Shown here one piece after another: positions 11,384 through 26,496 of a stretch of DNA of 64,000 nucleotides. The stretch lies in NCBI GenBank assembly GCA_020058765.1, contig JAGVDM010000006.1, forward strand, positions 117,488 through 181,487, read 5' to 3'. Position numbers and translations under genes: made by a program. How positions within the stretch are numbered: position 1 is the first letter of the stretch; each line of letters begins with the position of its first letter. Below the pieces are notes generated by a model. It had not been told where the DNA came from, did no database searches, and saw nothing but the letters and a program-made list of their open reading frames with translations. Source of the stretch: Candidatus Peribacterales bacterium (lineage in GTDB: Bacteria > Patescibacteriota > Gracilibacteria > Peribacterales > Peribacteraceae).

Positions 11384-12904
11384 TCACGCACGACGACGCA
11401 CAACTGCAAATGCAGTCGCATTTCGCGGATCGTGGTGCACGGATTCCGCGAGGACTTTCAGGCCGTAAAACTCCGCTGCACGCTTGGAGGCAAACACGCC
11501 CTTCGTTTTTGGCAATGCTCCCGTTGCTAGCAGCTTGGCAGAAAGCGCTGTATCCATTTCGTCTGTTGCTGGCTCCACAGGGATATCCGGCCAACGTTGT
11601 GCAAGCGTAAGCCTGCATTGGCTCAAGGCAATTGGATGGCCAAAGAAAGCATCGAGCTGATAAATATCGTGAATATCCGGATGCCCAAGAATGCACATGT
11701 TGATCGGCATGGTAAACAGTGCGAGCACGTCGAATTGGTACTCACCCATTGCCTGAATGGATTCGACGTATCCGCCCGAACCGGAGTTGGCGAATGCGAA
11801 AATACCGCGATCCACTTCGCCCTGTGCAACGGCACGCAGCACGTTTGCAGAGTGTACAAGCTCAACAACAGAAAAACGCGATTCGGGGACATGGAGAATC
11901 TCCGTCGCAAAGCGGTGCCACGCCTCATCGGTAAATGCGCCGCGTATCCCATGAATCCCAACCGAAACCTGCGATCCTTCCGGCAGAATATCTCCAATCG
12001 GTGACAACTTTTGCACGTATAAATCGGAAGCGGTTGCTGCCGCTCGGCCGAGGAATGTTTCATTCATGAGGTGAAAATCCTGCGTGACGTATTCGAGTAT
12101 CGTGGACTCGAAATTCTGCGGTGCACGAATGGCGCGCGCATCTTTGAGTTGCTGCTGCATGAATGCATCAATGCGCTCGAAAAATGCATCGTCGGCTAAT
12201 GCGCGGAACACCTCCTGGCATGTATCGAGAAACTTTGGCGATACATCGAGCAAAAGATCTTTCCGGAGCCACAATGGCACCGAATAGACTGCCTGAAAAT
12301 GCGCTTTAATCAGCGATGCAAATGATGGCGATGTGCACTTCAGCACGTTTTCGAGTGTGAGTGTTTCTGAAGACTGCGCCGCATATCTGCGCAGGAATTC
12401 CGAGAGGAAGACCGACACCATCTGCGGCATCCCAAGCACGATGGACATAAGAAGATCATGCTCCTCTGCACTCGTCACCGAGTGCATCATGACTTTCTTT
12501 TCTGAGAGCAAATCCAGAAACCACTGTGCGCGCGGATGATTGGGGATCTCACCAACCGTTACCCACTTCTGTCGCGTCCATGGAGTATGGGGCCCGTTCA
12601 TTGGATGCACAGAAAAGTACTGCGCGCCCGTAGCTGTGACGGTTTCACGTAAGTTGTGTTTCACGCTGCAAATATCTATGACGAGCTGAGACGGTGAAAG
12701 CTGCACTCCTCGCAAAACATCTTCCACCGCGGATTGTGGCACCGAGAGAATGATAATTTCCGATGTGAGTGCACGAGAAATCTCTTCAGCACTCGACGTT
12801 CTCCTTAGTGGAAAAAGCTGAGATTTTTTCTCGAGTAGGGGCGTGAGCACATGTGCCCCCATATCACCGCGAGCGCCGAAGAGAGCGACTGTAGGAAGTG
12901 TCAT
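11384..12904 (-). CDS. fused prephenate dehydrogenase (TyrA-like) / prephenate dehydratase (PheA-like) protein
   Basis: N-terminal Rossmann TyrA region (VALFGARGDMGAHVLTPLL, HPMNGP) and C-terminal PheA-like region (GIHGIRGAFTDEAW, ANSGSGGYVESIQ, ASKRAAEFYGLKVL). Confidence 0.85.
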   Translation of the reverse strand: MTLPTVALFGARGDMGAHVLTPLLEKKSQLFPLRRTSSAEEISRALTSEIIILSVPQSAVEDVLRGVQLSPSQLVIDICSVKHNLRETVTATGAQYFSVHPMNGPHTPWTRQKWVTVGEIPNHPRAQWFLDLLSEKKVMMHSVTSAEEHDLLMSIVLGMPQMVSVFLSEFLRRYAAQSSETLTLENVLKCTSPSFASLIKAHFQAVYSVPLWLRKDLLLDVSPKFLDTCQEVFRALADDAFFERIDAFMQQQLKDARAIRAPQNFESTILEYVTQDFHLMNETFLGRAAATASDLYVQKLSPIGDILPEGSQVSVGIHGIRGAFTDEAWHRFATEILHVPESRFSVVELVHSANVLRAVAQGEVDRGIFAFANSGSGGYVESIQAMGEYQFDVLALFTMPINMCILGHPDIHDIYQLDAFFGHPIALSQCRLTLAQRWPDIPVEPATDEMDTALSAKLLATGALPKTKGVFASKRAAEFYGLKVLAESVHHDPRNATAFAVVRRRA

Positions 12905-14055
12905 GCGCGCAGAGAACGGAGTTCTGCTTGAGTGTACGGCGTACCAAGGGTGAATACCATCATGGGGCTACCGAACGAATGGATCTTCGTAAGCTCCTGC
13001 TGATCACGGGTACCAATGCGACCGCTCTCAGTAGTAATGCAGTATTCCACCTCGCGGTTGCGCACCATGTCGGCAGCGGCGGCGTTGGATGTTGCATCCA
13101 CCCATTCGGCATACGGATCTTGCCCTGCAATCCATGGTTGCATGAGCGGTTTTGGAGAACCATGTGTTGCTACACGAGGCCGATGACCATTGCTCTCCAC
13201 ATCACCAAGTGCAGCGAGCTGCATTTCATCAAGAGGCATGTACTGGTGATCGGCAAAGAGAAGCTCCATGCGTTCGCGTACGCGGTCTTGATACAATTTG
13301 GGCATACCGAAGTACACGGCACATTCCATATGCAGCGGTACCGTGCCTGCGCGCTTCTCTGCGGCGGCAAGTTCAGCATACTGTATCGGTGTAATGCCAC
13401 GAGGGTGCACGGTCAGATCCGACTTCCCTGCAATGCCAAGATTGCGAAGGTACAGCTCCGATGCCTGTGCAATATTAGTACCCTGCGGACCAAGTGCATG
13501 AAGACGCACGTGTTCCACAGCGGGTGATGCAAGAATCTGGCGCAGATCGTGGTTCGTGACGATGTCCGAACCCATCACTGCCTTCATGCTCTCAGAGCGC
13601 TCTCGCTCGAGTACAGCTGTTGTAGGGCGAGTGGATGATGCCTCGGTTTGGCGAAGGCCGTGTGCAGTGGTACCGATGGTTCGCAGTGTGAGGGCGTCTG
13701 CGCCACCGGGGTCGCGAATGTACTGATGATCCACAAAGCTCGCGACTCTTGGCGTACCGAAGTATCGCTTTGGTAGATCGGGATTGGTAGCGCTGTCGAT
13801 GAAGAGCGGCACAACACCATGAGCGTCTTCATCTGCCAATGCCTCGTACGGAATACCGCCTGAGACTTCTGTCACTTGCAGCTTGGATCGTATGCCAAGC
13901 ACACGCGCATAGATCTCAGCAGCTTCGCGGTTTTGTGGTTCACAAACGCAATGTAATGTGCGCACGTCTGGATGACGCAATGCATGACCGAACTGTTCGG
14001 GCTCAGGCTGCGTGCCTGTTGGGAACGAAGAGAGGGATGGAAGAGTAGTAGGCAT
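12901..14055 (-). CDS. internally duplicated protein resembling the prephenate dehydratase/BacA-type prephenate decarboxylase fold
   Basis: LGPQGTNIAQASELYLRNLGI and DATSNAAAADMVRNREVEYCITTESG motifs; two related copies of about 90 aa; overlaps the TyrA-PheA start by 4 bp. Confidence 0.55.
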   Translation of the reverse strand: MPTTLPSLSSFPTGTQPEPEQFGHALRHPDVRTLHCVCEPQNREAAEIYARVLGIRSKLQVTEVSGGIPYEALADEDAHGVVPLFIDSATNPDLPKRYFGTPRVASFVDHQYIRDPGGADALTLRTIGTTAHGLRQTEASSTRPTTAVLERERSESMKAVMGSDIVTNHDLRQILASPAVEHVRLHALGPQGTNIAQASELYLRNLGIAGKSDLTVHPRGITPIQYAELAAAEKRAGTVPLHMECAVYFGMPKLYQDRVRERMELLFADHQYMPLDEMQLAALGDVESNGHRPRVATHGSPKPLMQPWIAGQDPYAEWVDATSNAAAADMVRNREVEYCITTESGRIGTRDQQELTKIHSFGSPMMVFTLGTPYTQAELRSLRA

Positions 14056-19617: not shown

Positions 19618-21768
19618 TCAGTGATGCGGCATGTGTTCTTTCACAGTATCTACCAAGCCGTGACGAGGATGACCATGCATCACATGTGTCGCCTGTTTCA
19701 TGGAATCCTTTGCCATATGCTTGATGCGCTTGAGAAGACGATATCGACGATGGGTGTGATGTGCGAGGTACCCCCCGCCGCCCACAATCACTCCGCCGAT
19801 GATGAGCCAGAACACTGCCACGCCTGCACTGCGCAGGAACGCAACGAACGATGCCCACGCAGATGGAAACAGTTCCAGCTGTTGCGCAACAGACAGGCGA
19901 GAAAGAAGCATGTCGCGCTGTGCGTCGTTGAACGGGGCAAAGAGCGTGTCGCGCTGCTCCTGAGATAAGCGCGAGAGCGTGCCAAACAGTGCCCAAGGAC
20001 TGAGCTTATTGAGCACCCGAAACAACACAGCAGGATCAATCGATTCAAGAATGTCGTAGAGGAAGTCCGCCGGCAGTTTGGCAAAAATCTCGGCAAGAGC
20101 GTCACCATCGAGCTGTTCGAGCACCATGCCACGATGATCAGGACTCATAAGACCAAGAGCAGCACCAAGCTGTTCAGGGGAAAGCCGAGCAAGGAAATCG
20201 CGGAGCACGCCACCCTTGAGCGTAGGCACGAGTGCCGCGAGCGCATCGGGGCTCAAGTTGTTTATAAGCTGCCGGTACTCCTCGTCTGTAACGGACGGAA
20301 ACAGAATTTCCCGCTGTTCATCGCCAAGTTTCGCGAGTAGCTTCGCCTGCTCTGCAGGAGGAAGTGATCGAAGCAATGCATCACGCTCTTCTAGAGTGAG
20401 CGTCTCCAACACAGTGCGGAGATCATCGGAAGAGAGTTTGTTCAAAATTTCCGCCTTCTTTGCCGGATCCAGCATGTCGAGCGTCTTGCGGAGATCAGCC
20501 GGTGAGAGCGTGGTGAGCACATCGCCCAGTGCCTCCGAAGGAAGTGTGGAGAGCACTTGGCCAAGTGCTTCTGGCGGCAAAGTGGTAAGCACATCTGCAA
20601 GTGCCTTAGGAGGCAGCTTCGTAAGAATATTTGCGAGATCGGTGGGCTGGAGCCGCATGAGCGTGCGTGCACGATCTTCTGGCGGCAGCGACGTGAGCAC
20701 GTCTGCTACATCTTCGGGCGACAATGATGTAAGTACAGTGCCCAACTCTTCTGGTGGCAGCTTGTCGAGAGTCTTTGCAAGCTCTTCGGGAGGCAAGGTG
20801 GTCAGCACTTCTCCGCGTTCCTCAGCGGAGAGTGACATGAGCACTTTCGCAAGATCTTCACCTTCCAACGCACCGAGCGTGGTGGCCAAATCTTCCGGGG
20901 ACATCTCTGTAAGCAGACTGGCGAGTTGCTCTGGTGGAAGGGTGGTGAGCAACGCGCCAAGTTGCTCCGGAGGGAGAACATCAGCAAGATCGGCAACACC
21001 CTCTGGTCCGAGTGTACTCACCATCTGTTGCACCTGTTCAGGGCGGAGTTTTCCAAGCAATGCAAAGAACGACTGCGCATCGAGACTGCTCAGGAAATCA
21101 ATGAGCCCATCGGGAGACAAGCGAGAGAGAATTTCGCTCCACTCATCGGGGCTCAGACGCTCAAGTAAATCGCGAAGTGCATCGGCATTCAAACGAGAGA
21201 GGAAACCAGCAAGACCATCGGGAGTGAGTGATCGCAGGCTTTCCATAATTGCCGACGGTGAGAGCTTGTCGAACAGTGCTCGCAGCGAATCGGGAACGAG
21301 CCCTGCCAAGAACCTGCCAAGCTGATCTGGCGTGAGGCTGCGTAAAAAATTCTGCAATTGTTCGGTGGGCACACCGTCCAAAATGCTGGAGAAGTCATTG
21401 GGTCCAAGATTGATAAGATGATCAACGAATGAGTCCCGTGCGGCAACGGGATCACCTTCTGCGCCGCACTCGGTAGTATCTCCTTCTCCTCCGGCAAGTG
21501 TGCCAAAGCAGCGAATCGCCCATCGACGATCGCGCGAAGGCAAATCGCTTCTTGGCCGATTGGTGGTGCCACCACTCTCACGATCAAGAATCTCTCTGTC
21601 TGATTGGCCAGAGGGTGTCAGCGAGCCTCCATCGAGAAGATTGGGAATACGACCCAAACGACCTTCATTATCGAAATACGTTGCCTGTGCAGGTGCTACG
21701 GCACAAAGCGCTGCGGCACAGGCCAACACGCTGCAGAACACCCGACCCAAGGAACGCACAGAATGCAT
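19618..21768 (-). CDS. secreted, membrane-anchored 12-residue-repeat solenoid protein
   Basis: Signal peptide, 43 contiguous 12-mers of type LPPEELAxxLxx, C-terminal TM and His-rich cytoplasmic-like tail. Confidence 0.85.
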   Translation of the reverse strand: MHSVRSLGRVFCSVLACAAALCAVAPAQATYFDNEGRLGRIPNLLDGGSLTPSGQSDREILDRESGGTTNRPRSDLPSRDRRWAIRCFGTLAGGEGDTTECGAEGDPVAARDSFVDHLINLGPNDFSSILDGVPTEQLQNFLRSLTPDQLGRFLAGLVPDSLRALFDKLSPSAIMESLRSLTPDGLAGFLSRLNADALRDLLERLSPDEWSEILSRLSPDGLIDFLSSLDAQSFFALLGKLRPEQVQQMVSTLGPEGVADLADVLPPEQLGALLTTLPPEQLASLLTEMSPEDLATTLGALEGEDLAKVLMSLSAEERGEVLTTLPPEELAKTLDKLPPEELGTVLTSLSPEDVADVLTSLPPEDRARTLMRLQPTDLANILTKLPPKALADVLTTLPPEALGQVLSTLPSEALGDVLTTLSPADLRKTLDMLDPAKKAEILNKLSSDDLRTVLETLTLEERDALLRSLPPAEQAKLLAKLGDEQREILFPSVTDEEYRQLINNLSPDALAALVPTLKGGVLRDFLARLSPEQLGAALGLMSPDHRGMVLEQLDGDALAEIFAKLPADFLYDILESIDPAVLFRVLNKLSPWALFGTLSRLSQEQRDTLFAPFNDAQRDMLLSRLSVAQQLELFPSAWASFVAFLRSAGVAVFWLIIGGVIVGGGGYLAHHTHRRYRLLKRIKHMAKDSMKQATHVMHGHPRHGLVDTVKEHMPHH
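19861..21408 (-). repeat. 43 x 36-bp coding repeat array (12-aa units)
   Basis: Manual alignment of translated units from LGPNDFSSILDG to LSVAQQLELFPS without insertion or gap. Confidence 0.9.
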
Positions 21769-21877
21769 CGAAATATGATACCACAAAAACGCCCCTTTGG
21801 GCAGCCCCCTGGCACGCATACAGCCAAACAGCACCGTCCTGGTTGCCCGAGCACCGCTGAACACGTAGGCTGCACCC

Positions 21878-22555
21878 ATGCAAAAAATCCTCATCCCCCT
21901 CCTTTCATTTACGTTGCTTGCGGCCTGCGCAAGTGGCAGTTCCAACCCAGAAAATATGCATACTGTAATTCTGCACACCTCACTCGGCGATGTGACGGTG
22001 GAAATTGATGGAAACGCTGCACCAAAAACAGCGGAGAACTTCCTTACACATGCGCGGAACGGCTACTACGACAATCTCACGTTCCACCGTGTCATCCCCG
22101 ATTTTATGATCCAGGGTGGTGACCCAACCGGCAATGGTTCGGGTGGCGAGAGCATCTGGGGAGGCAAGTTCGAAGATGAAATGAACGCGGAGAGCTACAA
22201 ACTGCACCGCACTCGGCTGGCAGAAATAACCGATGAACCGCTCCCAGCAGAATTGGCGAACATGACCGTACAGGAGTACTACGAACGCCAAGGCTACCAG
22301 TACGATGACTCGCTAGAATCCCACCCAATGGAACGCGGATACCTTGCAATGGCGAATGCTGGTCCCAATACAAACGGCAGCCAGTTCTTCATTATCACGC
22401 GCAAGGAAGGCACAGATTGGCTCAACGGAAAGCACACGGTATTCGGGAAAGTGCTCGAGGGCATGGAGATTGTAGATGCCATCTCCAACGTCGACCGTGG
22501 AGCAAATGATAAGCCAGTTACGCCTGTGACATTCACCGTAGAGGTGATCGACTAG
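21878..22555 (+). CDS. cyclophilin-type peptidyl-prolyl cis-trans isomerase lipoprotein
   Basis: Lipobox LLAAC; YYDNLTFHRVIPDFMIQGGDPTGNGSGG; NGSQFFI. Confidence 0.94.
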   Translation: MQKILIPLLSFTLLAACASGSSNPENMHTVILHTSLGDVTVEIDGNAAPKTAENFLTHARNGYYDNLTFHRVIPDFMIQGGDPTGNGSGGESIWGGKFEDEMNAESYKLHRTRLAEITDEPLPAELANMTVQEYYERQGYQYDDSLESHPMERGYLAMANAGPNTNGSQFFIITRKEGTDWLNGKHTVFGKVLEGMEIVDAISNVDRGANDKPVTPVTFTVEVID

Positions 22556-24801: not shown

Positions 24802-26496
24802 ATGCAGTACAACGACTATTCCCTTCTTCGGATCATTACCGGCATAACGGCACTCTCGCTTGTGCTTTCACCTTTTACGATTGTGCGCGCAGCAGACTAC
24901 GATCTGGAACCTCATGAATTGCCATATACGGATCGCGCATCAATCGACATGCAAACTGCCGCAGGGCTAGGCGTGCTCACGGAAGCGGGTATTTTTCGCG
25001 GAAACGATGATGGCACATTCCGCCCAGAATCGTACTTAAACCGTGCAGAATTCGTCACGATCATTCTGCGACTCCTTGGTGACGACACCACTGCACCAGC
25101 CACACGATGCTTCCCAGATGTAGCAGAAAATGTGTGGTACACAGAAGATGTGTGTCATGCAAAAGAGCTCGGCATCATTCGTGGAAATGCCGATCCAAAC
25201 CTTATGGAATCACAATGGCGCTTCGAACCGAATCGAGCCACAAACTACGCAGAAGCAGTGAAGATGCTCGTTGAGCTCTATACATTCCCTGTACAAGGTG
25301 AGGTGGAAGGGAGTGATTGGTTTGTGCCATACATGAATGCAGCCAATGAACGTGGCCTTGGTTTGCGCGGTATTCGCCCAGCAGATCTCATCACCCGCGC
25401 AGAAATGTCACGGCTCACGGCGCGCTTCTATGCACACAGCACAGGTGAGTTGGATGCATTGATCGAAGCAGAGATGCGCAACGAAGAATCGACTAGCAGC
25501 TCTGTATCTTCAACCTCTTCAGTTTCGTCTACACCTACCAACACATCGTCGGTAAGCAGCAGCACGAATGCCACGAAGGATCCCCTCCCTTGGTCGGCAG
25601 CCATCTCCGGATTCTTGGCTGCAGGGAATACATCGCAAATACTCGCGCAAGCAGATGTCTTCCTGGAACAGGAACCTCTGATGGTAGACGTAATTGTCAT
25701 TGCACTCGATACACCTACAGTAGAAGTGGAAGGATTCCTTGTGTACGACGAGAATGCTACGTTGCTCGGCCGTGCCGGACATGATCTAAGCAGAGGCAAC
25801 GGCGTGTACACGCTGCACATGCGAAACGACGAACTCACGATCGCAAAAGCAAAAGAATTTACCTTCTATGTGCGTGCCATTCTGCGCAGCGTAGATCGCG
25901 GCGCACAGAGCGGAGTGCCAGTAGAAGTGGAAAGCCTGAGCGTGGAAGGCACGGGCGAATGGAGCACGCGAACCTACGCACGTAGCACCACCGAAACCTT
26001 CCCCTCATTCATGACGGCCCACGGCACGCTCATGATCGAAAATGGCGGTGTATCTTCCGCAGTACTCGTCCCCGGGACGAACATAGAGATCGGCGCATTC
26101 CGATTCTCGATGCAAGCGGAGGACAGCCAAACAGATGTGCAAGTGGAAGACATTACATTCACTCTCAATCGCACATCCAACGTGGTCGTGTCGGATGTGA
26201 TCATGCGGCACCCCGAAAGCGGAGCAGAAATGCCCTGTTCGGTGACGTCTATCACCATTGAATGTACGAATATCACCGCAGGCCTAAGCACATTGGACGC
26301 AGATACCCCACGCACATTCAAGCTCTACGCAAACGTGCAGGTGACTACCGGAAACTCTGCAACATTGAGCTTGAGTATCTCTGATCCGGGCAACTCGACA
26401 TCAGCAGGAGACGTCACATGGACGGATGGTGAAACGACATTCCAGTGGCTCCCAGGCGGACAACCCGTTGTAACCGGTACCACCTACTCCTTGTAG
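24802..26496 (+). CDS. secreted S-layer homology (SLH) domain protein
   Basis: Signal peptide, SLH repeats (FRGNDDGTFRPESYLNRAEFVTIILRLLG), Ser/Thr linker; full-length paralog of 8530-10239. Confidence 0.85.
   Translation: MQYNDYSLLRIITGITALSLVLSPFTIVRAADYDLEPHELPYTDRASIDMQTAAGLGVLTEAGIFRGNDDGTFRPESYLNRAEFVTIILRLLGDDTTAPATRCFPDVAENVWYTEDVCHAKELGIIRGNADPNLMESQWRFEPNRATNYAEAVKMLVELYTFPVQGEVEGSDWFVPYMNAANERGLGLRGIRPADLITRAEMSRLTARFYAHSTGELDALIEAEMRNEESTSSSVSSTSSVSSTPTNTSSVSSSTNATKDPLPWSAAISGFLAAGNTSQILAQADVFLEQEPLMVDVIVIALDTPTVEVEGFLVYDENATLLGRAGHDLSRGNGVYTLHMRNDELTIAKAKEFTFYVRAILRSVDRGAQSGVPVEVESLSVEGTGEWSTRTYARSTTETFPSFMTAHGTLMIENGGVSSAVLVPGTNIEIGAFRFSMQAEDSQTDVQVEDITFTLNRTSNVVVSDVIMRHPESGAEMPCSVTSITIECTNITAGLSTLDADTPRTFKLYANVQVTTGNSATLSLSISDPGNSTSAGDVTWTDGETTFQWLPGGQPVVTGTTYSL

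Follow-up and report, generated by a model that had tools for sequence, protein, structure and literature searches.

A twelve-residue-repeat solenoid with MgtE_N-like units, predicted to be exported, in Candidatus Peribacteraceae

What would a Candidatus Peribacteraceae cell use dozens of MgtE_N-like helices for outside its membrane, and is that where they lie? The question is raised by one gene in a 64,000-nucleotide stretch of contig JAGVDM010000006.1 (assembly GCA_020058765.1), the whole of which is here called the window. A preliminary description of this DNA reported 43 uninterrupted 12-mers (516 aa, 19861-21408) in the encoded protein. Coordinates, count and pattern were all correct on unit-by-unit division: the array runs from LGPNDFSSILDG to LSVAQQLELFPS as 43 x 12 residues, or 516 aa, with no insertion or deletion.

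Layout of the gene and its repeats

The gene divides into the parts below, listed with the cyclophilin gene that faces it.

19618..21768 (-), whole gene: 716-aa twelve-residue-repeat solenoid, predicted to be exported; ATG start; same architecture in the orthologue
21682..21768 (-), predicted signal peptide, residues 1-29; hydropathy peak 2.07 at residue 7
21535..21681 (-), Gly/Ser/Arg-rich linker, residues 30-78, predicted disordered; 20% identity to the orthologue
21409..21534 (-), conserved N-terminal cap, residues 79-120; 55% identity to the orthologue
19861..21408 (-), 43 twelve-residue helical units, residues 121-636; net charge about -38, pI 4.3, Cys-free
19774..19860 (-), predicted C-terminal transmembrane helix, residues 637-665; hydropathy 2.09
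19621..19773 (-), basic tail, residues 666-716, pI 10.7, predicted cytoplasmic; His-rich here
21769..21877 (.), 109-bp intergenic region between the head-to-head array and cyclophilin genes; about 100 bp at the orthologous locus
21878..22555 (+), exported cyclophilin-type peptidyl-prolyl isomerase with a lipobox (LAAC); Pfam PF00160, 165 bits

The unit consensus is L-[SP]-P-[ED]-x-L-[AG]-x-[LV]-L-x-x. Leucine occupies position 1 in 37 of the 43 units, position 6 in 25 and position 10 in 34. Proline stands at position 3 in 27/43 and glutamate or aspartate at position 4 in 30/43, so the position counts bear out the Pro-acidic and Leu pattern originally described. At lag 12, the identity of 0.327 compares with 0.095 +/- 0.012 (maximum 0.141) for 5000 shuffles of the residues, giving z = 19. 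Lags 24 and 36 score as high as lag 12 in the protein, and the remaining lags are near background; a three-unit period in the window protein is not significant (344/2000 unit shuffles). At the DNA level, identity at lag 36 is only 0.45, which marks the units as old and diverged and not as a recent microsatellite. Proline makes up 8% of the array.

By hydropathy, the protein has a hydrophobic stretch near its N-terminus (about residues 6-28) and a single one near its C-terminus (about 637-665). In the predicted signal peptide, R5 and R9 are followed by a hydrophobic core and then by AQA. With a signal peptide, one C-terminal transmembrane helix and a basic tail, all read from hydropathy, the array is expected on the outside of the cell, and by the positive-inside rule the protein would be a type I membrane protein. 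We regard the overall architecture of the protein as well supported and hold it with high confidence. Cysteines are limited to the signal and a pair in the N-cap; the array has none, and the mature chain contains Cys87 and Cys101. Both belong to the cap motif RDRxWxIxCFGTL..CG..GD....FVDHL, both are kept in the orthologue, and they could form a disulfide. No known adhesin domain appeared in a Pfam scan of the 716-aa protein.

Relation to MgtE_N and predicted fold

The units had been likened to those of MgtE and FliG, a relation supported by Pfam, solved structures and fold search. Pfam MgtE_N (PF03448) matches the window protein at 216 bits, against a gathering cut-off of 25.9 (E 1e-64, seven stretches), and FliG_M, FliG_C and FliG_N are likewise above their Pfam cut-offs. 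The best solved chain by sequence is the MgtE cytosolic domain 2yvy (E 9.2e-9). HeliScrew4 (9zem) is a weak PDB sequence match, and no literature trace of it was found. RPAP3_C, CSTF2_hinge and F-box also passed their cut-offs, at 25-42 bits, and were regarded as short-helix coincidences.

The full-length MgtE equivalog TIGR00400 scores 77 bits against a cut-off of 232.75, and the full-length FliG model TIGR00207 scores 38.7 bits against 226.7. Scores so far under the cut-offs indicate that the unit is present, not the transporter or the rotor. The transmembrane channel domain PF01769 is absent from the window protein (Pfam) and from its genome, and the Pfam scan found no CBS domain in the protein. 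No YscJ_FliF match (the FliF MS-ring) was found in the host genome, which is 1.17 Mb and 99.3% complete. Since this genome has neither the MgtE channel domain nor FliF, the array is neither a transporter subunit nor an E-ring protein.

An AlphaFold2 model of the whole protein, made from an alignment of two rows, has a mean pLDDT of 78.7; most of the array scores 85-96, and values drop below 50 in residues 1-78 and in the C-terminal tail. Nearly every unit is modelled as one helix of 7-10 residues. Two neighbouring unit pairs merge into longer helices (243-264 and 471-489), and a long coiled-coil helix is absent from the confident part of the model. A long helix at 637-663, of low confidence, coincides with the predicted C-terminal transmembrane segment. 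Modelled alone, an 11-unit fragment reaches pLDDT 90 and pTM 0.81. As a prediction, then, the alpha-solenoid fold first proposed holds.

A PDB fold search with this fragment returned MgtE cytosolic domains at ranks 1-7 (TMq 0.35-0.47, E 1e-4 to 2e-3, rmsd ~6). ARM, PUF, FliG and designed solenoids follow, PUF at TMq 0.52-0.53, and a FliF-YlxF model is also among the matches. MgtE comes top but with moderate TMq (~0.45) and high rmsd, so the local packing is MgtE-like while the global curvature differs. The whole model found generic solenoids only, with no global match to a solved solenoid (TM <= ~0.25 among the matches listed). A single BFVD match (E 4e-4, TM 0.31) was judged not meaningful. 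ARM solenoids extend by about 3 Angstrom per helix, and at that rate 43 helices would span very roughly 13 nm. The handedness would be right-handed if it follows the MgtE/FlgY fold.

An orthologue with 46 units and the history of the locus

The sole orthologue is found in Ca. Peribacteraceae bacterium STF1_71, a member of the same family but of another genus, and is 49% identical. Comparing repeat number between carriers, a check named at the outset, gives 46 units there against 43 here; in the alignment the difference is one 36-residue (three-unit) block. The core of the orthologue has a three-unit, 36-aa super-period (3/2000 unit shuffles), and the array's middle portion is homogenised and differs in length from one orthologue to the other. 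Both arrays are strongly acidic (pI 4.3-4.4).

Identity is 55% in the N-cap and 54% in the array, against 20% in the linker, 28% in the signal and 21% in the transmembrane segment. The orthologue nevertheless keeps a hydrophobic N-terminus (site VQA, against AQA), a C-terminal transmembrane segment and a basic tail. Hydrophobicity of signal and transmembrane segment maintained at such low identity argues that hydrophobicity is the selected trait. Hydropathy and the retained N-terminal segment support the extracytoplasmic placement originally drawn from the signal peptide. The claim of a C-terminal transmembrane anchor with a His-rich tail fares less evenly. Its anchor stands, by hydropathy and by retention in the orthologue. 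The tail of the window protein is indeed His-rich (11/52 residues), but the corresponding tail of the orthologue is rich in Lys/Arg, so the abundance of His is not conserved. Conservation of surface positions between the two proteins is 0.51 in the membrane-proximal third, 0.36 in the distal and 0.39 in the middle part, values to be read as weak arguments because only two sequences are known.

The 46-unit orthologue lies at the corresponding locus. Both carriers have the gene order KsgA-ComEC-methyltransferase-Vut1-array-cyclophilin, with a peroxiredoxin and a nitroreductase additionally between Vut1 and the array in the window. The array-cyclophilin pair is also found in STF1_71, and the cyclophilin lipoprotein could plausibly assist the folding of an array with so much proline. 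As the cyclophilin gene itself occurs in 73/74 family genomes, this link is only suggestive. In 20 family genomes, the surroundings of the cyclophilin gene contained no array, and Vut1 was not next to it.

Several other genes were recorded as separate observations. An S-layer homology (SLH) domain protein lies near the array (window 24802-26496, +), and related SLH proteins adjoin KsgA in sister genomes (L109, L110, L114). A small, apparently secreted Cys-rich protein of the CGERVCHSYDxNGxCNNYTC type adjoins Vut1 in sister genomes (L110:7302-7796, L111:4131-4595, L112:6950-7429, L114:4024-4563); none was seen beside Vut1 in the two array carriers. At window 11384-14055 (-), two adjacent ORFs appear by eye to be prephenate dehydrogenase/dehydratase-like, in a reduced genome.

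The array gene occurs in 2/74 family genomes, the other seven weak matches being frames of 448-559 aa, and class-wide there are again only two carriers among 353 genomes. Searched against genome contigs, the single protein found no relatives, and the two-sequence alignment found STF1_71 only. For the N-cap, 341 class genomes gave no clear match beyond the two carriers, with one weak match at E 0.002. A phylum sample of 380 genomes contained no comparable array; its weak matches, up to 45 bits, were frames of 409-480 aa with, by eye, a PRC-barrel-like start, and were not long arrays. Viral contigs and phages contained no relatives of the array protein. A plasmid search matched 16 records, most of them Streptomyces pentapeptide-repeat proteins (25-35% identity) taken as composition-driven; the Sarcina and Legionella matches ran antisense to the annotated gene, and the Tsukamurella match turned out to be a genuine array of 12-residue units. 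Rhodococcus opacus also gave a match.

A distinct group of proteins came to light in these searches. Frames of about 410-520 aa, mostly without a predicted transmembrane segment, were seen in phylum genomes (L076-L082) and at L011, L013, L014, L016 and L017. By eye they combine a PRC-barrel-like start with MgtE_N-like repeats. Several Patescibacteria families have them, and they seem to be something other than MgtE channels.

In sister-genus genomes the KsgA-ComEC-methyltransferase-Vut1 block is present without the array. The two carriers form a group (support 97 and 0.96) in a tree built on KsgA, ComEC, Vut1 and cyclophilin. The simplest history is a single gain in the ancestor of the two; loss in other lineages is possible.

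Possible roles of the array and comparison with known systems

The reading we lean towards, tentatively, is an acidic, length-variable stalk that presents the N-terminal cap. The signal peptide would direct export. Outside the membrane, the 43 short helices would form a continuous right-handed MgtE_N/ARM-like alpha-solenoid, anchored by the single C-terminal transmembrane helix and the basic cytoplasmic tail. This solenoid would carry the Cys-pair cap at its membrane-distal end, reaching towards the S-layer or through it, to make contact or to bind. Its length would change as three-unit (36-aa) blocks are added or lost, and the head-to-head exported cyclophilin may assist folding of the proline-rich repeats. 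Such a stalk is favoured by a conserved cap beyond a non-conserved linker, by orthologue lengths that differ by exactly one three-unit block, and by weak surface conservation in the distal and middle array. An adhesin or episymbiotic role is possible.

The membrane-proximal third, as the best-conserved surface, is at odds with a mere spacer whose active part is the distal tip, and it makes binding by the solenoid itself the main rival. Here the concave groove would grip an extended ligand (a peptide, glycan, pilin or S-layer protein), as in ARM, PUF and MgtE superhelices, and the N-cap would merely be a folding cap. The ARM- and PUF-type solenoids among the fragment matches and the 36-aa super-period of the orthologue, which resembles three-helix solenoids, also fit a groove. 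A homogenised, length-variable middle and poorly conserved distal and middle surfaces, judged from two sequences only, do not, and we consider groove binding rather unlikely.

Further down in probability, and in our view improbable, is a self-assembling scaffold, in which ARM-like units stack between molecules to build a lattice or layer, either under the S-layer or inside it. Repeats of this kind stack into rings in FlgY/FlbB dimers and in FliG (PMC13023049, PMC11870540), the array protein is predicted to be exported and membrane-anchored, and an SLH protein is encoded nearby. The genome, however, has no flagellar partner, FliF being absent, and the confident part of the model has no long coiled-coil helix. 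A net charge near -38 also disfavours close packing without cations.

That same acidity could suit a surface buffer or sensor that binds extracellular Mg2+ or Ca2+, a use derived from the MgtE N domain. The MgtE_N relation, the low pI of both orthologues and a host genome without the MgtE channel are in keeping with this. Mg2+ sensing in MgtE, however, needs the N and CBS domains together, and the window protein has neither a CBS nor a channel domain; acidity is also a result of the P-E/D pattern at the helix N-caps. We give cation buffering very little weight. A cytoplasmic or pseudogene product, whose hydrophobic N-terminus is no signal peptide, is already disfavoured and the least probable reading: MgtE_N and FliG domains are normally cytoplasmic and export is predicted from hydropathy, but the frame is open, the architecture recurs at 49% identity in another genus with its AQA/VQA site, transmembrane segment and basic tail, and cysteines are kept out of the array.

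Among known systems, the MgtE N domain (PF03448; 2yvx, 2yvy, 2oux, 8gpv) has the same short-helix unit of about 12 residues and gives the best sequence and fold matches. In MgtE, about 100 residues of such units lie in the cytoplasm and are followed by CBS and channel domains, whereas the window protein has 43 units, is predicted to be exported and has no channel. FliG shares the ARM-like middle and C-terminal domains that pass the Pfam cut-offs here, but it is a cytoplasmic rotor protein with short arrays and neither signal peptide nor transmembrane segment. FlgY, FlbB and MotE are exported proteins of the flagellar E-ring with one small MgtE_N-type domain (PMC11870540, PMC13023049). These and YlxF are exported or membrane-anchored and carry an ARM-like domain of this type (PMC11870540, PMC13023049). 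The window protein passes the MgtE_N cut-off, and its export is predicted from hydropathy. The E-ring proteins have a single four-helix domain carried by a coiled coil and are flagellar, in contrast to 43 helical units in a genome without FliF. ARM, HEAT and PUF alpha-solenoids follow a similar three-helix, 36-42-aa logic and superhelical shape, with no sequence relation seen and no close whole-model match among those listed.

A second long array is found in the hypothetical protein WP_068740634.1 of Tsukamurella tyrosinosolvens (plasmid NZ_LR134454.1, 1276-3378; L121). It too begins with a hydrophobic N-terminus, and its long array of 12-residue MgtE_N units scores 122 bits, with period 12 at 0.23 against ~0.11. 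It is 22% identical to the window protein (BLAST), shows no common N-cap and, unlike the window protein, continues after the array into hydrophobic and Ala/Glu/Pro-rich parts. Its array is probably an independent elongation. Long exported arrays may thus have arisen at least twice. The novelty that the preliminary description implied for an exported MgtE_N fold is accordingly lower, given exported FlgY, FlbB and MotE (PMC11870540, PMC13023049) and the secreted Tsukamurella array; a literature search for a long secreted MgtE_N array found no paper. It is conceivable, though we would hold the idea loosely, that the two arrays stand for an undescribed architectural class, in which MgtE_N/ARM-like single-helix units, repeated in dozens, build exported length-variable rods for cell-surface contact, independently in Ca. 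Peribacteraceae and Mycobacteriales. If so, the fold of an intracellular sensor and rotor (MgtE_N/FliG) would have been recast as a giant exported rod.
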